36,552 nt of DNA from positions 1 to 36,552 of IMG/VR virus record IMGVR_UViG_3300025138_000129; one strand, given 5' to 3'. Made by a program: the position numbers and the translations under genes. The notes under the pieces were generated by a model. It saw only the letters and a program-made list of their open reading frames with translations, was not told the DNA's origin and ran no database searches. This stretch comes from a virus. This document shows, piece by piece, positions 4,938 through 24,857 of the stretch; the first letter of the stretch is position 1, and each line of letters begins with the position of its first letter.

Positions 4938-4965
4938 ATAAACTATGAATAAAACAGGAGAAAAT

Positions 4966-5637
4966 ATGATTATTTCAGATGATACCCTCAAGGTATTACA
5001 AAACTTTGCTATGGTTAATCCTAACCTAGTACTTAAACCCGGCCAGAAGGTGAAAACAATTTCGGAGGCCAAGAATATCATGGCAATCGCTGAAATCACC
5101 GAGGACTTTCCATTGGAGTTTGGAGTCTATGACTTAAACGAATTCCTATCAGTCCATGGTCTTATTGAAAATGCCACATTGTCTTTTGATGATAAGTCAC
5201 TTACCATGTCGAATGGTGACCAAAAAATCAAATACTATTTTGCAGAAACAGATATTCTAACTCAACCGACTAAGGATATTACAATGCCTGATGCGGAAGT
5301 TGGTATTAATCTAACTGAGAAAGTATTGGATCAGATTAAGAAAGCGGCATCTGTTCTTGGCCACATGGAGTTATCTCTAAGTGGTAATAATGGAGTTGTT
5401 ACAGCAAGTGTCTTGGATGTTAAAGACTCTACTGCCAATACATTTGATATTGTGGTAGATAAAGACAATAACTGCAAAGAAACATTTAATTTCGTGGTTA
5501 ATATCCCGAACTTAAAACTACTACCAGGTGATTATTATGTGTCAATCAGTTCTAAACTGATCTCAAACTGGCAAAATACTAATTATCCAGTAGAATATTT
5601 TATAGCTTTAGAGAGAACTAGTAGCTATGGTGTATAA
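4966..5637 (+). CDS. gp45: DNA polymerase sliding clamp gp45
   Basis: Trimeric clamp that tethers gp43 to DNA and, in T4, also activates late transcription with gp33/gp55. The protein is 223 residues, close to T4 gp45 (228). The N-terminus, with SDDTLKVLQNFAMVNP, lines up with the T4 start. I chose the ATG at 4966 because ACAGGAG sits 5 nt upstream and the homology begins there. The ATG at 4945 is only 7 nt past the -10 box and would add seven residues. It is followed by other replisome genes (gp44, gp62), as in T4. Two proteins in this window end in a motif that could bind this clamp (gp43 and the glycosyltransferase at 13156). Confidence 0.93.
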   Translation: MIISDDTLKVLQNFAMVNPNLVLKPGQKVKTISEAKNIMAIAEITEDFPLEFGVYDLNEFLSVHGLIENATLSFDDKSLTMSNGDQKIKYYFAETDILTQPTKDITMPDAEVGINLTEKVLDQIKKAASVLGHMELSLSGNNGVVTASVLDVKDSTANTFDIVVDKDNNCKETFNFVVNIPNLKLLPGDYYVSISSKLISNWQNTNYPVEYFIALERTSSYGV

Positions 5638-9016: not shown

Positions 9017-11527
9017 ATGAAATTCTACACAAATGTAACTCGATATGGTAATATGTTACTCTATCGTGGCTATGAAAATGGCCAAAAGAAACAAGAAAAG
9101 ATCAAATACAAACCAACTCTGTTTGTCAATACCCCCAAACCAACCCCTTGGAAATCCTTAGACGGAGTACCAGTTGCTCCTATTCAAATGGAATCTATGC
9201 GTGACGCCAAAGAGTGGATCGCTTCTAATAAACAAACAGCCGGTAGGTTAATATTCGGCAATGACCGATACATACCTGCTTATATTAATGACGAATTTCC
9301 AGGCATCATCGAGTGGGATAGAAACAAGATCAATGTAACATCATTTGATATCGAAGTTGCCTCTGATGACGGTTTCCCAGAACCAGATAAAGCAGATTAC
9401 CCAGTAATATCAATTGCCATGAAAAATAATATTGACAATACATATTATGTTTGGGGTCTTAATGACTATGACGTGGAAAATTCTTTAATGAAAGATAACC
9501 GTGTGGTCTACAAAAAATGTGGTTCTGAGGCTGAATTACTATCAGACTTTATATTACACTGGTGTCTACCATCTAACTGCCCCGATGTTATTACAGGCTG
9601 GAACATCAGATTCTTTGATGTCCCCTACCTAGTAAACAGAACAATTAAAATTCTTGGCGATGACATGGCTAAAAGATTTTCGCCGTGGGGTCTTGTTGAC
9701 CGATATGACGTTAAGATGATGGGTCGTGAACAGTGCACATATGACTTAAAAGGTATATCCACAATTGATTACCTAGAATTATTCCAAAAGTTTGGCTACT
9801 CTTATGGTACCCAAGAATCTTACAGACTCGATCACATTGCTAATGTAGTTCTTGGAGAAAAGAAACTATCTTATGCAGAACACGGTTCACTCCATACATT
9901 ATACAAGTTTGACCATCAAAAGTTTATTGATTATAATATCAAAGACGTAGAGTTGGTTGATCGGCTAGAAGACAAGATGGGTCTTATTACTCTATGTCTT
10001 ACAATGGCTTATCAAGGTGGCGTGAATTACAACGACACATTCGGAGTAACTTCGATATGGGAATCAATTATTCATAGATACCTATACGAGAACAAAGTCT
10101 GTATGCCGTTCTATGAGAACAAGGTAAAGACTAATTATCCTGGTGGTTATGTAAAAGATCCAGTGGTTGGTCTACACGAGAACGTAGTTTCGTTTGACCT
10201 TAACTCTCTGTATCCTTCTCTGATTATGCAATATAATATGTCGACAGAAACAATCGCTAATGGTGAAGTAATGAACCTAGACATAGAGAAACTGCTCCAA
10301 GGTTATACCTTTAAGAATCCTGGTAAGGCAATTGGCGGCAACGGGCAGATGTTTAGAACAGATAAGAAAGGCTTTATGCCTACTCTTGTAGATGGTATGT
10401 ACAGCGAACGTGTTGGCATTAAGAAAGAAATGCTCTCGGCACAACGAGAGTTGCAAAAGGTAGATAAACATGATAAACAAAAACTTTATGATATTGAAAG
10501 GCGAATTAACATTGCCGAAAATCGGCAAATGGCTATTAAGATTCTTCTTAATTCTCTTTATGGTGCTATGGGCAACAAGTACTTCAGGTTCTTTGACCAA
10601 CGTATCGCAGAGGCCATTACTCTGTCTGGACAACTTACAATTCGGTGGGCAGAGGTCGCCATTAATAAGTATCTCAACAAGGTGTTGTCTACCAAAGGTA
10701 AGGACTATGTCATTGCCATTGACACCGACAGTTTGTATGTTAGCCTAGATGATTTGGTTAAACTTGTTAACCCAGTCAATAAGATTGATTTCCTAGACAA
10801 GGTTGCAGAAGATAGACTAGAACCAGTACTTGCAGATGCCTATGTAGATTTATATAAGATGATGGGCGGAATCGAAGACAGAATGGTAATGAAAAGAGAA
10901 GTTATTGCTGATCGCGGCATCTGGACAGCAAAGAAAAGATATATTTTAAATGTGTTCGACAATGAAGGGGTTCGTTATGCAGAACCCAAACTTAAAATCA
11001 TGGGTATTGAGGCTATCAAATCATCAACTCCAGAACCATGTCGAGATGCTCTTAAAGAAATCTTTAAAGTGATTATGTCCGGTGATGAAGTAAAGACCCA
11101 GATGGCCATTAAACAATTTAAACGGTATTTTAACTCACTAGATGCAGATAAAATTGCATTTCCCCGCGGAGTCTCTAATGTAACCGACTACCGAGATGCA
11201 GGTACAATCTATAGAAAAGGTACTCCTATTCATGTTCGTGCAGCTTTGTTACACAATAACCTGTTGGACCATTATAGTCTAAATAAGAAGTATGAACATA
11301 TTAAAAATGGCGAGAAGATCAAGTTTATCTATCTTAAAGTACCCAACAGCTTGAAAGAAAATGTTATCGGATTTTCGCAGTATTTACCTGAAGAATTTAA
11401 ACTCGCTAAATACATAGACTATGAATTACAATTTCAGAAAACATTCTTGGCCCCAATCGAGCCAATACTAAAATCAATCGGTTGGTCGTCAGAAGAACAA
11501 TCATCTTTAGAAAGTTTTTTTGGCTAA
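9017..11527 (+). CDS. gp43: DNA polymerase gp43 (family B)
   Basis: 836-residue replicative polymerase with 3'-5' exonuclease. Exo I FDIE (D111, E113), Exo II FFDVPY (D201) and Exo III YNIKD (D310) are intact. Polymerase motif A is FDLNSLYPS (D394), motif B is KILLNSLYG (508-516) and motif C is DTDS (D569, D571). The extreme C-terminus SSLESFFG matches the clamp-binding tail used by T4/RB69 gp43 to hold gp45. It is somewhat shorter than T4 gp43 (898). It has its own promoter of the conserved set and AAGGTGAC ahead of the ATG. Assignment is certain. Confidence 0.98.
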   Translation: MKFYTNVTRYGNMLLYRGYENGQKKQEKIKYKPTLFVNTPKPTPWKSLDGVPVAPIQMESMRDAKEWIASNKQTAGRLIFGNDRYIPAYINDEFPGIIEWDRNKINVTSFDIEVASDDGFPEPDKADYPVISIAMKNNIDNTYYVWGLNDYDVENSLMKDNRVVYKKCGSEAELLSDFILHWCLPSNCPDVITGWNIRFFDVPYLVNRTIKILGDDMAKRFSPWGLVDRYDVKMMGREQCTYDLKGISTIDYLELFQKFGYSYGTQESYRLDHIANVVLGEKKLSYAEHGSLHTLYKFDHQKFIDYNIKDVELVDRLEDKMGLITLCLTMAYQGGVNYNDTFGVTSIWESIIHRYLYENKVCMPFYENKVKTNYPGGYVKDPVVGLHENVVSFDLNSLYPSLIMQYNMSTETIANGEVMNLDIEKLLQGYTFKNPGKAIGGNGQMFRTDKKGFMPTLVDGMYSERVGIKKEMLSAQRELQKVDKHDKQKLYDIERRINIAENRQMAIKILLNSLYGAMGNKYFRFFDQRIAEAITLSGQLTIRWAEVAINKYLNKVLSTKGKDYVIAIDTDSLYVSLDDLVKLVNPVNKIDFLDKVAEDRLEPVLADAYVDLYKMMGGIEDRMVMKREVIADRGIWTAKKRYILNVFDNEGVRYAEPKLKIMGIEAIKSSTPEPCRDALKEIFKVIMSGDEVKTQMAIKQFKRYFNSLDADKIAFPRGVSNVTDYRDAGTIYRKGTPIHVRAALLHNNLLDHYSLNKKYEHIKNGEKIKFIYLKVPNSLKENVIGFSQYLPEEFKLAKYIDYELQFQKTFLAPIEPILKSIGWSSEEQSSLESFFG

Positions 11528-11869: not shown

Positions 11870-12835
11870 ATGCAATCAAGATATCCTATTTACATTATAT
11901 CTAAAGGTCGTGCAGATTCAAGACTGACAGTTAAATCTTTGGACGATATGGGTGCAATGTATAGGGTAGTTATTGAACAATCAGAGTATGATGATTATGC
12001 TGCAGTAATTAACCCTAACAGACTATTAGTACTACCCGAAGGTTTTAGAGAAAATCCAAGATGGGCAAGACCTTGCGATGTGACTGGTCTTATGGGTGGA
12101 TCCATTCCAGTAAGAAACTGGGTATGGGAACATTCTATTAACGAAGGACACAAGCGACATTGGATTATGGATGATAACATTCATAACTTCTATAGGTTAC
12201 ATAACAATAGAAAGACCAAAATGACCACACCCGCATGTTTTAGAGTATGTGAAGACTTTACTGATAGGTATACAGATGTTAAAATGTCTGGTATGAACTA
12301 TGCTTTCTTCTGTCCTGCATTTACTAAACGACCACCTTACTATCACAATACCAGAGTATATTCTTGTATTCTATTATCCAATGATGTATATGAAAGTGGA
12401 GAACTTTACTGGCGTGGTAAGTTCAATGAGGATACAGATCTGTCATTGAGAGTCATGAAAGGTGGATATCACACATACTTGTTTAATGCAATGTTATGTG
12501 GTAAAGTCGCAACATTGACAATGAAAGGTGGTAACACTAAAGAGATATATGGTATAGACCAAGCTGGAACTAAACATGACAGAGCTGGTGAGAACTATGA
12601 CGACAGACGAGAGTTTGCAGAATCTCTACATGCCCAACATCCAGACGAAGTTAGGATTACACAAAAATGGGGCCGTTGGCACCATCACATAGATTATACT
12701 GTATTCCAAAACAAGAAACCTACCAAAAAACCGGACCTAAATATACCTAAAGGTACTAATAATTATGGAATGAAATTGGTAAAATTAAAATCAACAGCAG
12801 CATTAGATGAACAGGAGGAATTAAATGTCGAATAA
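11870..12835 (+). CDS. TAGT-type glycosyltransferase (GREB1/TET-associated family)
   Basis: 321 residues. N-terminal YPIYIISKGRADSRLTVKSL, the EYDDYAAVI segment, GGSIPVRNWVWEHS (77-89), and the nucleotide-sugar/metal motif WIMDDN (D101, D102) fit the phage family described as TET/JBP-associated glycosyltransferases, related to the GREB1 C-terminus. Members are predicted to glycosylate modified bases in phage DNA. FNEDTDLSLRVMKGGY (from about 186) would be the second acidic active-site block, as in GT-A enzymes. No TET/JBP dioxygenase or other base-modifying gene is visible in this window. It starts 2 nt after the Sm-like gene and overlaps the next gene by 11 nt, so it is operonic. Substrate is unknown. 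Confidence 0.75.
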   Translation: MQSRYPIYIISKGRADSRLTVKSLDDMGAMYRVVIEQSEYDDYAAVINPNRLLVLPEGFRENPRWARPCDVTGLMGGSIPVRNWVWEHSINEGHKRHWIMDDNIHNFYRLHNNRKTKMTTPACFRVCEDFTDRYTDVKMSGMNYAFFCPAFTKRPPYYHNTRVYSCILLSNDVYESGELYWRGKFNEDTDLSLRVMKGGYHTYLFNAMLCGKVATLTMKGGNTKEIYGIDQAGTKHDRAGENYDDRREFAESLHAQHPDEVRITQKWGRWHHHIDYTVFQNKKPTKKPDLNIPKGTNNYGMKLVKLKSTAALDEQEELNVE

Positions 12836-13154
12836 AGATTTAAATAAAGCTATTAACTATGAACCACAAAGCCTATTTGTGTTAGATGGTAGCGAAGAAG
12901 AAACAACACCTTATGATTGGGACGATATGCCCGATTTTAACCAGCCACAGGCTGAAGCTCATAAGATGATTAAGATCCGTTTTAGAAATGAAGAGGATTA
13001 TAGAGAGTTTGCAGAACTAATCGGGCAAAGAAATATGACCCATAGAACCAAAAGTATTTGGTATCCTGTTCTTGATAAGAAAGCTCATAGCCTTGAAAGA
13101 TTTGTGCATGAAGACCAAATTGATGAAATGGAAATAGATGAAGTGATTGGTTAA
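12825..13154 (+). CDS. Small protein between two glycosyltransferases, function unknown
   Basis: 109 residues. An acidic N-terminus (DGSEEETTPYDWDDMPDF) is followed by a compact alpha/beta segment, KMIKIRFRNEEDYREFAELIGQ, then TKSIWYPVL and an acidic tail. This KxRFxxxEDxxEFAxLxGQ...TxSIWYP pattern recurs, to my knowledge, in phage proteins near DNA-modification or ParB-like genes, but I cannot name the domain. It overlaps the TAGT gene and ends just before the second glycosyltransferase, with AGGAGG ahead of its ATG, so it probably works with them. Confidence 0.78.
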   Translation: MSNKDLNKAINYEPQSLFVLDGSEEETTPYDWDDMPDFNQPQAEAHKMIKIRFRNEEDYREFAELIGQRNMTHRTKSIWYPVLDKKAHSLERFVHEDQIDEMEIDEVIG

Positions 13155-13155
13155 T

Positions 13156-14103
13156 ATGGCCAAGATTATAATGTACTGGTCTAATATACCAGAAAAATCA
13201 GGTTATACTACCGTTGATGAATGGAGAAATAGTGAATTACAATTTTCTCCGCATCATGATTTAGTATTTAAATCGCACGAAAGATTAGGTAATGATGTAG
13301 AAATATGGACACATCAAAAAGTATCAGAATTTAATTATAGTGGTATTACAATAAAAGATGCTGGCGAAATTATGTCGCATGATATTTGTTTTGATGGTTT
13401 GTCATGGGGCCATTCAATTGCATTTATAGCAGATACCGTAAGAGTCAAGAGAGCAAGTGAAGTATTAGGTATTGTACTAGATATGGATTCTGTTTGTCTA
13501 AGACCATTTCCAGAATATGATAGTTGGTTCAGTACTATGCCAGCAAAAATTACTAGCAGTATGGCTCCTAAATGGGGACCAAAGAAACCACCAATGACAG
13601 TACATGATGGGTCGTGGGATGGTAAAGCTCTTACTGCATTTCCAATTAAAATTGGTTCTACAACACAAAAAGAAATGTCAGCCTTGGCCGATAGTATACA
13701 CGAAAAATTTAAAACAAAGCCTAAAGGTGGATCCGATGAATGGAACTCTATTCTTTGGACAGTAAAGAAGATCGCTAATAATGATACAACTGCTAAAGTA
13801 TTTGAACCAATCTATATGAGTCCGTTACCCGCATGGTTACCAGTTGGCAAATGTTATAGCCTTGAAAGTCCTACTAGATTAGATGGCGTAACAGAAATCT
13901 TTGGTTACCCATTGCCTTCGATTAAAGACATAATGAGCAAGTCGTTTATTGTCGCTCATTTCTTTGAGAGTGCATTTCAGAATGCCGACCAGATCGAGGC
14001 AGACAAATGGGATAGTATATCTGACGACAGTTTGCTAGCGAAAGAAATGGATCTAATAGGCTATAAGAGAAATAAACCCACATCCCTAGACGACTTTTTT
14101 TAA
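13156..14103 (+). CDS. Putative GT32-like (DxD) glycosyltransferase with clamp-binding tail
   Basis: 315 residues. The N-terminal IIMYWSN...ELQFSPHHDLVFKSHERLG and the central SEVLGIVLDMDSVCLRPF, with DxD at 109-111, resemble family-32/capsular-type glycosyltransferases, where DxD binds the nucleotide sugar. The protein ends in SLDDFF (310-315). This closely matches the gp43 C-terminus SLESFFG, the clamp-binding peptide, suggesting that this enzyme docks on gp45. The ATG at 13156 follows the previous stop by one base. An in-frame TTG at 13147 is less likely. Neighbouring the TAGT gene and the replisome, it is a candidate DNA-modifying glycosyltransferase; the acceptor is not known. Confidence 0.62.
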   Translation: MAKIIMYWSNIPEKSGYTTVDEWRNSELQFSPHHDLVFKSHERLGNDVEIWTHQKVSEFNYSGITIKDAGEIMSHDICFDGLSWGHSIAFIADTVRVKRASEVLGIVLDMDSVCLRPFPEYDSWFSTMPAKITSSMAPKWGPKKPPMTVHDGSWDGKALTAFPIKIGSTTQKEMSALADSIHEKFKTKPKGGSDEWNSILWTVKKIANNDTTAKVFEPIYMSPLPAWLPVGKCYSLESPTRLDGVTEIFGYPLPSIKDIMSKSFIVAHFFESAFQNADQIEADKWDSISDDSLLAKEMDLIGYKRNKPTSLDDFF

Positions 14104-15336: not shown

Positions 15337-15503
15337 TAAAAAGACTTTGGACAATTTGGAAATTTGCTATAGGCAGTTTTTCTGATGAACAAACCGCAGA
15401 GTTTGACACCCCAGTTGCAATCGCAAGAACCTTTATTGTAGGAATAAATGTGATATGTGCAATTTTAATTATGACTAATATTATAGTAGGATGGATAAAT
15501 TGA
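15333..15503 (+). CDS. 56-residue membrane protein
   Basis: A small gene overlapping its upstream neighbour by ATGA. An amphipathic N-terminus (MIKRLWTIWKFAIG), a polar middle (FSDEQTAEFDTPVAIART) and one hydrophobic span (FIVGINVICAILIMTNIIVGW). It runs into the UDP-glucose dehydrogenase start, so it sits tightly in the operon. No function can be assigned. Confidence 0.7.
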   Translation: MIKRLWTIWKFAIGSFSDEQTAEFDTPVAIARTFIVGINVICAILIMTNIIVGWIN

Positions 15504-16684
15504 AAAATATAACAGTAGTCGGATCTGGTTATGTGGGTATGGCTAATGCCACAATGCTCGCAAAATATAATAATGTAACAATACTTGATATTGATGCAGA
15601 AAGAGTTAAGAGTGTTAACAATAAAATCTCTACCATTGAGGATAAGTATATAGACGAATACTTATTAAATGAATCTCTTACACTAAACGCCACCTTGGAC
15701 CAGAAAGTAGCATATACTGATGCAGAATGGGTAATTATCTGTACTCCTACAGACTATGACGAGACAAAGAATTACTTTAATACCGACAGTATTCAATCAT
15801 GTATTAGAGATTGTATGCATTATAATCCTGATGCTCATATAGTAGTTAAATCCACAATACCGGTAGGTTTTATAACTTCAATGCAGGTCAAGTTTGGCAA
15901 ATTTGATATAATGTTTTCTCCAGAATTTTTAAGAGAAGGTAGTGCATTACGTGATTGCTTGAGACCTGAAAGAATTGTTATAGGTGATAAAAGTCCAGTA
16001 GCTAAGAAATTCGCCAAAATTATACAACAAGCTATTGTACCCGAATTTCCACAGGCCCCAGTATATTATACAGGTAAGAAAGAAGCGGAATCAATTAAAC
16101 TATTCGCTAATACATATCTTGCAATGAGAGTAGCATTCTTTAATGAATTGGATATGTATGCAGAATCCCTTGAATTAAATACAGAAGAAATAATCAAGGG
16201 TGTAACCTCAGACGCAAGAATTGGTAAAGGGTATTCTAACCCATCGTTTGGATATGGTGGTTATTGTTTCCCTAAAGATACTAAACAGCTATTGGCTAAC
16301 TTTCGTAAACAGAGAATACCAAATAAGATAATCCAAAGCATTGTATATGCTAATGAGAATAGAAAAGATTGGATAACAAATAAGATTCTACAATGTGATG
16401 CGGTATCAGTAGTAGGAATACATAGACTAGTAATGAAGTCCGGATCTGATAACTTCCGTTCTTCAGCAATACAAGGTATTATACAAAGATTAACAAATAA
16501 TAATATCAAGGTAATTATATATGAACCGCAACTTACAGATTCGGAGTTTATGGGTTGTATAGTCGAAACGGACCATAAGAAATTTAAAAAATTAGCTGAT
16601 CTTATTGTAACCAATAGATTGGATGATACACTCAAAGATGTTATAGACAAAACTTACACAAGGGATATATTTAATGACAATTAA
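15491..16684 (+). CDS. ugd: UDP-glucose 6-dehydrogenase-like protein
   Basis: About 395 residues. It oxidises UDP-glucose (or a related UDP-/GDP-sugar) to the uronate with NAD+. The Rossmann motif is VVGSGYVGMANA. The catalytic cysteine is in GYGGYCFPKD (C259 counting from 15491). The central domain contains SPEFLREGSA and the C-terminal nucleotide-binding domain is present. The ATG at 15491 directly abuts AGTAGG, whereas a TTG at 15500 has normal spacing and gives MKNITVVGSGYVG, which matches the family N-terminus. The TTG may therefore be the real start. It overlaps the membrane gene and the MazG-like gene. It probably supplies activated sugar for a glycosyltransferase; the exact sugar is unproven. 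Confidence 0.9.
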   Translation: MDKLKNITVVGSGYVGMANATMLAKYNNVTILDIDAERVKSVNNKISTIEDKYIDEYLLNESLTLNATLDQKVAYTDAEWVIICTPTDYDETKNYFNTDSIQSCIRDCMHYNPDAHIVVKSTIPVGFITSMQVKFGKFDIMFSPEFLREGSALRDCLRPERIVIGDKSPVAKKFAKIIQQAIVPEFPQAPVYYTGKKEAESIKLFANTYLAMRVAFFNELDMYAESLELNTEEIIKGVTSDARIGKGYSNPSFGYGGYCFPKDTKQLLANFRKQRIPNKIIQSIVYANENRKDWITNKILQCDAVSVVGIHRLVMKSGSDNFRSSAIQGIIQRLTNNNIKVIIYEPQLTDSEFMGCIVETDHKKFKKLADLIVTNRLDDTLKDVIDKTYTRDIFNDN

Positions 16685-17033: not shown

Positions 17034-17891
17034 ATGAATAAAAAAATATTAGTAACAGGCGGCGCAGGATTTATCGGTTCTGCTTTATGTCATAAGTTAG
17101 AAAATCTAGGACATTCGGTCACTAGTTTAGATAACTATTCAAATGGGTCATCAGATAATCATCACCCTGGCGTAGAATATGTAACAGGGTGTACAAACCA
17201 AATATCCATGTATTTTCATGATGATGCAAAGTTTGATTATATCTTCCATTTAGGAGAATATGCTAGAGTAGAGCAATCATTCAATGATTATGCTGAAGTA
17301 ATGGATTATAACTACCATTCGTTTCCTAAGATGTTAGAATTTGCTAAGAAGTCCGGTGCTAAGTTTATTTACTCTGGTTCATCTACTAAATTTTCGGTTG
17401 GAGAAGTTGGTAAGATGATGAGTCCATATGCATATACTAAAGCACAAAATACTGAATTATTAACAGCATATGCTGAATGGAATGATATGCCATATGCAAT
17501 AGTATACTTCTATAATGTATACGGAGAAGGTGAAGTTGCAGATGGTAAGTATTCTACGGTAATTGCTAAGTTTATTAAAATGGTTCAGAACCAAGCGACA
17601 TCATTACCTATTACAAGCCCTGGAACACAAAAAAGAAACTTTACGCACATTGATGATACTGTTGATGGTTTAATTAAAGTAATGGAATTTGGTACTGGAG
17701 ATAATTTTGGTATCGGTAATGATAAATCATATTCTTTATTAGAACTAGCAGAAATATTAGGGGTTAAACCTGATATGCAACCAGAGAAACCAGGTAATAG
17801 AATGTCCGGAGAAGTTCGCAATCAAATGTTGAAAGCTCTAGGCTGGAAACCTAAGACAGATTTAAAAGATTACATTAAGGATAGATTATGA
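17034..17891 (+). CDS. NAD-dependent sugar epimerase/dehydratase (extended SDR)
   Basis: 285 residues. N-terminal VTGGAGFIGSALC is the NAD-binding Rossmann motif, and the catalytic pair is Y132xxxK136 (YAYTK) with the preceding SGSST serine segment. NFTHIDDTVDGL and GNDKSYSLLELAEIL are typical of UDP-glucose 4-epimerase-like enzymes. It probably interconverts a nucleotide sugar, perhaps the product of the neighbouring dehydrogenase. The exact reaction (4-epimerase, decarboxylase or other) cannot be told. The mRNA from the promoter at 16995 would be almost leaderless. It overlaps dexA by ATGA. Confidence 0.86.
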   Translation: MNKKILVTGGAGFIGSALCHKLENLGHSVTSLDNYSNGSSDNHHPGVEYVTGCTNQISMYFHDDAKFDYIFHLGEYARVEQSFNDYAEVMDYNYHSFPKMLEFAKKSGAKFIYSGSSTKFSVGEVGKMMSPYAYTKAQNTELLTAYAEWNDMPYAIVYFYNVYGEGEVADGKYSTVIAKFIKMVQNQATSLPITSPGTQKRNFTHIDDTVDGLIKVMEFGTGDNFGIGNDKSYSLLELAEILGVKPDMQPEKPGNRMSGEVRNQMLKALGWKPKTDLKDYIKDRL

Positions 17892-19196: not shown

Positions 19197-19631
19197 ATGA
19201 AAGTAGGTATTACTTGTTCCACATTTGATTTGTTACACTCAGGTCATGTGGCAATGCTAAGAGAAGCAAAAACTGCATGTGATTATTTAATCTGTGCATT
19301 ACAGAATGACCCGTCGGTCGATCGGCCAAATAAGAATCAACCAGTTCAAAATATAGTTGAGAGGCAAGCACAACTTGCCGCTATCAGATATGTGGATGAA
19401 ATTCTTGTATACAATACCGAAGACGAACTAAGGGACATTCTAAGTATGTATCAGATAGATGTTAAGATTATGGGCGAAGAATACAGGGATATAGACTTTA
19501 CTGGTAAAGATATTTGCCAGAAACGTGGAATTGAATTCTATTTTAACAAACGTGATCACAGATTTTCTACATCAGACTTACGCAAAAGAGTCGAAGAAAA
19601 CTCTTTACAAATAGGGAAAAGTGTAGTATAA
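19197..19631 (+). CDS. Cytidylyltransferase (TagD/RfaE-like nucleotidyltransferase)
   Basis: 144 residues. CSTFDLLHSGHV has the HxGH motif (H14, H17) of the cytidylyltransferase superfamily. The KRDHRFSTSDLRKR end is the second nucleotide-binding (xSTSxLR) motif. Relatives activate glycerol-3-phosphate, ADP-heptose precursors or ethanolamine phosphate; the substrate cannot be read from sequence. It fits the local set of sugar/nucleotide-activation genes. Its TAA stop (19629-19631) lies inside the -10 box of the next promoter. Confidence 0.82.
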   Translation: MKVGITCSTFDLLHSGHVAMLREAKTACDYLICALQNDPSVDRPNKNQPVQNIVERQAQLAAIRYVDEILVYNTEDELRDILSMYQIDVKIMGEEYRDIDFTGKDICQKRGIEFYFNKRDHRFSTSDLRKRVEENSLQIGKSVV

Positions 19632-21992: not shown

Positions 21993-22330
21993 TGCAGCAT
22001 TATATAGACGAATCAGATTATACATTTGTAGAGAATGATTCAGAAGAATTTTGGGGTATAAAACTAAGAAATGGTTCCCCTTACGCAGGTGTCATAGTAG
22101 TATATGGTACAGTTTCTATTAAAGAATCCGAAGAACTTGATATTGCAACTCTTTCTTTCTCTTATAATGTCCAAGATGCAGGACAGTATAATATAGACGA
22201 GTTAGAAAAATCCGAAGAGTTTAAAAACTATTTAGGCGATTTGTTGCAAAGTATAATTAATGATAATGTAAAGGAAAAGAATGGACATAACAAATCAATT
22301 ACCAACTCATATACTGAATCACCTTCTTAA
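21992..22330 (+). CDS. Hypothetical protein overlapping gp41 start
   Basis: 112 residues, with AAGGAGG before the ATG. Acidic, with a beta-rich core (GIKLRNGSPYAGVIVVYGTVSI ... LDIATLSFSYNV) and a helical Glu-rich end. Its last 50 nt overlap the gp41 start in another frame, so its final ~15 residues are constrained by gp41. No known family recognised. Confidence 0.78.
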   Translation: MQHYIDESDYTFVENDSEEFWGIKLRNGSPYAGVIVVYGTVSIKESEELDIATLSFSYNVQDAGQYNIDELEKSEEFKNYLGDLLQSIINDNVKEKNGHNKSITNSYTESPS

Positions 22331-23678
22331 TAATGAGGATTATTGTAGACGGGTAATTCCATACCTACAGAAAGAGTATTTTGAGGGGACACATAAGACA
22401 GTCTTTGATCTTATTGTCAAGTTTGTTGCTAAACACAATAAATTACCTAGTGGTAGAATTCTCGACCTAGAATTAAGAAAGATTCAAGCCCCCGATGATA
22501 TACTAAACAATGCTGCTAAATTAATCAATGAGATAAAAGAAAAATCAGACGTTGATACAGATTACTTAATTATAGAATCAGAGAAATGGTGCCGAGATCG
22601 CGCAGTATACAATGCCATTATGAATTCAATTCAGATTATTGATGGTAAAGATTCAGAAAAGACTGAAGGTGCTATACCAGAGATTCTATCTGAGGCCCTT
22701 GGAGTTTCATTCGACCAGGCTATCGGTCATGATTACATAGATAATTCAGAAGACAGATATGAATTCTATAATAGAACAGAAGAAAGAATACCATTTGACT
22801 TGGACTATTTTAATAAGATTACAAAAGGTGGGTTACCCAATAAAACACTCAACATTTGTCTAGCAGGTACAGGTGTGGGTAAATCTTTATTTATGTGTCA
22901 TTGTGCAGCATCTGTGCTAGAACAAGGTAAGAATGTTCTATATATTACCATGGAAATGGCAGAAGAAAGAATAGCAGAACGTATAGATGCCAATCTTATG
23001 GACTTACCAATCCAGCAATTAGAAAATCTACCCAAGAATGTATTTGATACTAAGATACAAAAGATAGCACAAGCATCAATAGGTAAATTAATTATTAAAG
23101 AATATCCAACAGGATCTGCTCATACTGGTCATTTTCGTGCATTACTTAATGAACTGAAATTAAAAAAGAACTTTAGTCCGGATATGATTTATATTGATTA
23201 TTTAAATATTTGTGCATCAAGCCGTATGAAAGGTATGGGCGGAAGTATAAATAGTTACACCTACATTAAGGCCATAGCAGAAGAAATGCGTGGTCTTGCT
23301 GTAGAGTTTAATGTACCGATAGTTTCGGCGACACAGACCACTAGGTCAGGATTCAGTAATACTGATGTCGGACTAGAGGATACATCGGAATCATTTGGAT
23401 TACCGGCAACGGCTGATCTTATGTTTGCTCTTATATCTACAGAGGAACTAGAAGAATTAGGCCAATTAATGGTAAAACAATTGAAAAACCGATATAATGA
23501 TCCAACGACATACAAGAGATTTGTTATTGGTGTGGATCGTTCCCGCATGAAATTATATGATGTAGAGGAATCTGCCCAAACCGATCTTATAGGTGACGGC
23601 AGTTCTATCCCCGATAAACCAATTGCAACGTGGGGAGATAGAGAAAATAAAGACACGTTTGCAGATTTTAATATATAG
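22281..23678 (+). CDS. gp41: Replicative DNA helicase gp41 (DnaB-like)
   Basis: 465 residues, hexameric 5'-3' helicase of the replication fork. An N-terminal helical domain (HILNHLLNNEDYCRRVIPYLQKEYFEG) resembles the start of T4 gp41. Walker A AGTGVGKS (K201), YITMEMAEERIAERI, Walker B DMIYIDYLN, and VPIVSATQTTRSG (motif H3) are all present. The length is close to T4 gp41 (475). The start at 22281 has AAGGAAAAG upstream and lies within the preceding gene. Confidence 0.95.
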   Translation: MDITNQLPTHILNHLLNNEDYCRRVIPYLQKEYFEGTHKTVFDLIVKFVAKHNKLPSGRILDLELRKIQAPDDILNNAAKLINEIKEKSDVDTDYLIIESEKWCRDRAVYNAIMNSIQIIDGKDSEKTEGAIPEILSEALGVSFDQAIGHDYIDNSEDRYEFYNRTEERIPFDLDYFNKITKGGLPNKTLNICLAGTGVGKSLFMCHCAASVLEQGKNVLYITMEMAEERIAERIDANLMDLPIQQLENLPKNVFDTKIQKIAQASIGKLIIKEYPTGSAHTGHFRALLNELKLKKNFSPDMIYIDYLNICASSRMKGMGGSINSYTYIKAIAEEMRGLAVEFNVPIVSATQTTRSGFSNTDVGLEDTSESFGLPATADLMFALISTEELEELGQLMVKQLKNRYNDPTTYKRFVIGVDRSRMKLYDVEESAQTDLIGDGSSIPDKPIATWGDRENKDTFADFNI

Positions 23679-24650: not shown

Positions 24651-24857
24651 ATGCAATACTGTGACTATCACTTTGAAATAAATGAGAATGGATTGAAATT
24701 AACAGATAAAGGATCGCCTGATAAATGGGAACAGGTAGATATAAATAAAACCCCACTTAATGTTGGAGATAGATTTATTTTAACTCAAGATCCAGATGGC
24801 TGTATGTTTTTTGAGAAAGAACAAGTACCTGTCCAACTAGGACTATTTGATGAATAA
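24651..24857 (+). CDS. Hypothetical protein
   Basis: 68 residues, AGAGGAAAG before the ATG. The sequence suggests a small beta protein: YHFEINENGLKLT, then LNVGDRFILTQDPDGCMFFEKE. It ends PVQLGLFDE. No family recognised. Follows the tRNA and overlaps the next gene by 8 nt. Confidence 0.7.
   Translation: MQYCDYHFEINENGLKLTDKGSPDKWEQVDINKTPLNVGDRFILTQDPDGCMFFEKEQVPVQLGLFDE

Follow-up and report, generated by a model that had tools for sequence, protein, structure and literature searches.

A predicted clamp-docking tail on a putative DNA glycosyltransferase and on relatives of base-modifying enzymes in marine T4-like phages

Introduction

To escape host restriction, a phage has to get all copies of its DNA modified in time, and what is known of how post-replicative modification keeps up with replication comes from a single in vitro interaction described in T4. 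The T4 alpha-glucosyltransferase (AGT), an enzyme of GT-B fold, binds the sliding clamp gp45 in vitro (Sommer 2004, cited in PMC13216743, where the binding was also reproduced), and the latter paper concludes that the share of alpha-glucosylation is mainly set by expression and enzyme activity, and not by clamp binding. The gp45 clients with a C-terminal clamp motif are a polymerase or transcription factors: T4 gp43, gp55 and gp33 carry similar and interchangeable C-terminal clamp peptides (PMC2988020; PMC7892883), in which a hydrophobic and acidic end peptide, [ST]L[DE]xxF-like, is borne on a linker. Finally, pathways with two sequential DNA glycosyltransferases have been described in T6 (AGT and the TET-associated glycosyltransferase, TAGT) and for the arabinosylation of RB69/NP, the latter with sugar-nucleotide genes (PMC13390438).

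We analysed a glycosyltransferase (GT) gene of the virus record IMGVR_UViG_3300025138_000129, within a stretch of 36,552 nucleotides (positions 1 to 36,552) that is called the window hereafter. An earlier note on this DNA had proposed that the encoded enzyme modifies DNA while riding on gp45 through a polymerase-type tail, and had presented this coupling as a new arrangement. The feature is real and this reading appears largely correct, but the novelty had been placed on one enzyme. As T4 AGT already binds gp45 (PMC13216743), tying a base glycosyltransferase to the clamp has a precedent and this part of the claim was too strong. The novelty lies in the recurrence of the same tail across base-modifying enzymes of several unrelated kinds.

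Results

The window gene encodes a glycosyltransferase of GT-A fold

The open reading frame at 13156-14103 (+), whose coordinates were verified, encodes a protein of 315 residues with the C-terminus ...GYKRNKPTSLDDFF*; an in-frame TTG is found 9 bases upstream. The protein has no match of its own in Pfam, PHROG or NCBIfam, be it to PF04488 (DXD glycosyltransferase region), to the TAGT profile (PF20691) or to the AGT profile (PF11440, GT63). PF04488 is nevertheless weakly matched by 11 of the 16 members of its family, with a best E-value of 2.7e-4, and the DXD motif (LDMDS, residues 109-111) is invariant across the alignment of 16 homologues. These homologues come from IMG/VR contigs only; no relative was found in cultured phages and no homologue in the bacterial genomes scanned. 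Judged by its sequence, the GT is a new family.

A structure model, obtained from the 16-sequence alignment, has a mean pLDDT of 84 and a pTM of 0.86, whereas a shallower alignment with five close homologues gave a pLDDT of 34. The model resembles GT-A and not GT-B enzymes: its neighbours are ABO GTB (E 9e-6) and SetA (E 1.5e-5) with Foldseek, and WbbM (Z 12.6), glycogenin (Z 12.2) and YeGT (Z 12.2) with VIA. A PDB sequence search yielded weak matches to SetA and nothing else. The family matches, the model and its neighbours all support the identification as a glycosyltransferase made in the earlier note.

The fold and the DXD motif are common to the GT and to PF04488/GT32-like GT-A enzymes such as glycogenin, WbbM, SetA and the ABO glycosyltransferases, whose known members have glycans, proteins or lipids as targets, and the structural neighbours act on sugars, proteins or glycans, none of them being a DNA enzyme. 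The GT differs from them by its clamp-type tail and its DNA-modification neighbourhood. These affinities, typical of glycan-acting enzymes, would favour an action on a polysaccharide or protein of the host or virion, in which case the resemblance of the C-terminus to that of gp43 would be accidental. We consider this very improbable for reasons that come from the tail, which is kept across divergent homologues, lost outside T4-like phages and matched at C-termini far too often for chance, and from the neighbourhood, in which TAGT and ParB-like domains constantly accompany the GT and a tailed TAGT occupies the same slot in another contig (L059, see below).

The GT ends in a peptide of the type found on gp45 clients

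Alignment of the homologues delineates at the C-terminus an 11-residue add-on, RNKPTSLDDFF (14068-14100, +), composed of a linker and a clamp-type peptide, TSLDDFF. Residues 307-315 are disordered in the model (pLDDT <50), with a short helix predicted at 311-314. The window also encodes the DNA polymerase gp43 (9017-11527, +; 836 residues), which carries a C-terminal clamp peptide and ends in EEQSSLESFFG, and the proposed docking partner, the sliding clamp gp45 (4945-5637, +; 230 residues), matched to the RB69 clamp (1b77/1b8h, E 3.8e-18) and to T4 gp45 (1czd, E 2.9e-17). The earlier statement that the GT ends in SLDDFF, gp43 in SLESFFG and no other protein in this way is exact: the sliding-clamp-type C-terminal pattern is found on these two proteins only among the 51 non-overlapping genes of the window. 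The GT resembles gp45 clients in ending with a short hydrophobic and acidic peptide, in the flexible linker that bears it and in being encoded together with gp45 and gp43. It differs from them in that the peptide sits on a putative DNA-modifying enzyme.

When searched inside proteins, a loose form of the clamp pattern occurs at 1.7e-4 per site in 285 genes (the first contig set and part of T4), from which 0.24 C-terminal matches are expected in these genes; 11 were observed. The 149 kb of T4 that were scanned yielded gp43, gp55 and gp33 and nothing else. A C-terminus arisen by chance is ruled out by this excess, by the survey described below and by the absence of the pattern from all 301 genes of the contigs whose GT has no tail.

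The tail of a DNA glycosyltransferase could also serve a role unrelated to gp45, by contacting gp43, the primase or TAGT, or by stabilising a dimer, its FF or FM core being a generic hydrophobic peptide. We hold this to be unlikely: in the part of T4 that was scanned, the motif is found on the three known gp45 clients and on no other protein, it is borne by enzymes of unrelated folds in gp43/gp45-type phages only, and homologues that lie with other replication genes keep their TAGT neighbour but lose the tail. A docking to gp45 is the reading that we retain.

Two other C-termini were noticed in the window. The gp41-type helicase (22281-23678, +) ends in DTFADFNI and its copy in L059 in DTFANFKI, a weaker resemblance to clamp peptides. 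A 68-residue protein (24651-24857, +) ends in PVQLGLFDE, which contains the bacterial beta-clamp motif QLxLF, and its homologues end in KQLELF (L029:11327-11569) or QLKLPFEE (L082:7739). A C-terminal QLxLF is found in only two of the 1649 genes examined, both of this family, and the window protein is, on this motif, possibly a ligand of the host clamp DnaN.

The tail is conserved in gp43-bearing contigs and absent elsewhere

The earlier note had stated that a tail not conserved in close homologues would refute its idea; within T4-like phages, this check came out in favour of the idea. SLD[DE]F[FM] is kept in every GT homologue with a complete C-terminus in gp43-bearing T4-like contigs, from 100 down to 71-73% identity, as SLDDFF, SLDEFF or SLDDFM, and synonymous codon changes are found within the tail. 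gp43 is present in 10 of the 11 contigs with a tailed GT, the exception (L008, contig G009), which starts inside the GT gene, ending in SLDEFF without a gp43 match in the contig. gp45 was found in three of the longer contigs with a tailed GT.

The GTs of L011-L013, of about 72% identity, stop exactly at ...IGYK and the whole add-on is absent; those of L039-L050, of 40-47% overall identity, are also devoid of tail. In the contigs with a tailless GT, which are fragments, so that absence is not proof, neither gp43, PolB nor gp45 was seen. For gp45, this absence rests on three observations: a search of part of the contigs with the window gp45, the missing PolB and the presence of non-T4 genes; PF02916, tried as a marker of gp45, gave no signal even in its controls. 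PolA, as a marker of these contigs, gave no match. Several of them carry non-T4 genes, such as a primase/helicase fusion (phrog_239; L011 and L039) or genes for portal, head and terminase proteins.

In the best GT tree, the tailed homologue of L018 branches outside a group formed by the tailless pair and the other tailed GTs, which implies two changes; a topology with one tailed clade is, however, not rejected (p-AU 0.325). In its distribution, kept in clamp-encoding phages and absent elsewhere, the tail is what would be expected of a gp45-docking peptide, as had been proposed earlier.

The GT gene lies in a DNA-modification neighbourhood

The gene upstream of the GT (11870-12835, +) encodes a TAGT (PF20691, E 3.5e-42; phrog_842 'beta-glucosyl-HMC-alpha-glucosyltransferase', E 4.6e-40), i.e., a partner DNA glycosyltransferase. 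The TAGT family, which includes the T6-type beta-glucosyl-HMC-alpha-glucosyltransferase, also has the GT-A fold, but the GT does not match its profile and the window TAGT is without tail. The 109-residue protein encoded between both genes (12825-13154, +) is related to a ParB-like protein found alongside the GT in other phages, namely to its C-terminal part, ParB_N being found in full-length relatives. Downstream are encoded a UDP-glucose dehydrogenase (UGD; 15491-16684, +; phrog_9148, E 1.8e-74) and an NAD-dependent nucleotide-sugar epimerase (17034-17891, +; PF01370, E 4.6e-41), both for sugar-nucleotide supply, as well as a cytidylyltransferase-like nucleotidyltransferase (19197-19631, +), a relative of which occurs in several GT loci. 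UGD and epimerase genes are also found in surface-glycan clusters, in line with a glycan target. The TAGT, ParB-like and sugar-nucleotide neighbours, taken together, support a DNA-modification context.

This association is recurrent, also across distant phages. A TAGT accompanies the GT, be it tailed or tailless, in 13 of the 15 contigs tested, one of the two misses (G009) being the contig that starts inside the GT gene, and a ParB-like domain adjoins the GT or TAGT in most GT contigs. In L059, the gene order of the window is found, and the slot between the ORF of the 109-residue type and the primase is occupied by a second TAGT (PF20691, E 6e-35), which ends in NALSEFFN, a tail similar to that of the GT. 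In the GT contigs, which are fragments, a Tet_JBP search gave no match, its control being silent too, and no hydroxymethylase or base-modifying synthase of the ThyA superfamily was found in those examined.

Two GT-ParB fusions were observed, with the ParB-like part C-terminal in L049:3273-4946 and N-terminal in L050:9128-10654. The T4-like contig L018 has, downstream of the GT, metabolic genes that are unusual for a phage (L018:11978-14474), of aldolase-like, cupin and PEPCK-like type (the latter PF01293, E 8e-95), and then a phosphomannomutase-like gene.

The GT gene has replication genes around it and lies 1.6 kb downstream of gp43, and this position bears on another possibility, i.e., that the tail binds gp45 not for modification at the fork but for late transcription, packaging or plain concentration of the enzyme on phage DNA. 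gp45 also tracks DNA as an activator of late transcription (PMC2988020), and the T4 alpha-glucosyltransferase share is not mainly determined by the clamp interaction (PMC13216743). As expression and activity mainly set this share in T4, a benefit of tethering is putative. Against this alternative are the position of the gene and the nature of the other tailed proteins of the survey, which are base-modifying enzymes or their relatives. It keeps some weight, but we deem it clearly less probable than a modification of newly replicated DNA.

Similar tails recur on relatives of base-modifying enzymes

The survey covered 78 loci around gp43 homologues, comprising 826 kb and 1046 genes. The C-terminal motif was found on gp43 in 73 of 75 cases, and otherwise on 12 of 36 relatives of base-modification families versus none of 935 other genes (Fisher p 9e-19, a descriptive value, the families having been delimited once the tailed proteins were known); 1.3 motif matches of any kind were expected by chance. 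These 12 proteins are three AGTs (PF11440), two TAGTs, one Tet_JBP protein, one C-5 DNA methylase, two proteins with HMUDK_hel, the helical domain of 5hmdU DNA kinase, and three proteins of phrog_13881/17781, a family with a long PHROG profile that also matches the HMUDK_hel proteins. With a wider pattern, the counts are 25 of 36 versus 8 of 935, and one TAGT and one amino-acid:DNA transferase (PF18724) are among these eight.

Among marine homologues of PF11440, three have SLEDFFG or TLEGFF tails and a fourth ends in GLEAFF. Marine TAGTs carry clamp-type tails in L018, L067 and L106, the second TAGT of L018 ending in SKLDDFLS. Tails are also found in cultured phages. In C48C1 (L052), whose gp43 is the closest to that of the window (50%), a D12 DNA methyltransferase (22495-23379) ends in STLDAFFG and a TET/JBP oxygenase (38598-40016; WJE87939) in SLEEFFV, and the TET of DLP6 ends in ATLGDFFV. 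The tail is absent from the window TAGT, from enteric TAGTs and from the TET of Cr30, as well as from the TETs of the small phages HTVC112P and P12024L.

Three proteins of 345-347 residues without Pfam family end in QLSDFMV, PLEEFML or QLDEFMV (L093:11977-13020, L095:4018-5055 and L121:18748-19791), that of L121 directly following a tailed phrog_13881 protein. Their C-termini make them candidate DNA-modifying enzymes.

Discussion

We read the results as pointing best to a gp45-tethered DNA glycosyltransferase, working with TAGT and the UDP-sugar genes and representing one case of a wider habit of clamp tails, to which we give a probability of about 0.72. The GT, the adjacent TAGT and the UDP-sugar genes would decorate the bases of the phage's own DNA, the two enzymes probably being sequential glycosyltransferases. 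The flexible C-terminal linker would present TSLDDFF to the hydrophobic patch of the gp45 sliding clamp, and this docking could keep the GT on freshly replicated, clamp-loaded phage DNA. The transfer of a sugar to a base of this DNA, both of which we infer, would then take place at or behind the fork.

Like T4 AGT (GT63, PF11440), the GT is a glycosyltransferase of a T4-like phage tied to gp45, a tie that is here predicted. Both enzymes differ in fold (GT-B versus GT-A) and are not related in sequence, and T4 AGT ends in FDIITK, without a gp43-type tail. Two glycosyltransferases are likewise used in RB69/NP arabinosylation and T6 gentiobiosylation, with sugar-nucleotide genes also in RB69/NP; these pathways differ from the window locus by the glycosyltransferase family involved. 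In animals, DNMT1 is bound to PCNA, and clamp-tailed phage enzymes would represent a functional convergence.

The data allow a stronger claim: in marine T4-like phages, putative base-modifying enzymes of several unrelated chemistries bear a gp43-type clamp peptide, the new GT-A enzyme being one of them. No report of gp43-type tails on DNA-modifying enzymes was found in the literature searched, which mostly did not extend to subscription papers. Enzymes of these chemistries may each have acquired the same clamp tail, and the presence of this tail on DNA-modifying enzymes of related viruses suggests that DNA decoration is tethered to replication. gp45 could then be a general tool-belt for base modification: C5-methylases, TET/JBP, TAGT, AGT, GT32-like enzymes and those of the 5hmdU-kinase and amino-acid:DNA-transferase types would have gained their tails independently, and new DNA would be processed stepwise by enzymes carried on one and the same clamp. 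For this idea as a whole we see the odds as even.

As the predicted docking peptide can be cut or swapped and is found on many unrelated base-modifying enzymes, the coupling is directly testable. A gp43-type C-terminus would also provide a simple sequence rule for finding unknown DNA-modifying enzymes in T4-like phages, of which this GT family is an example.
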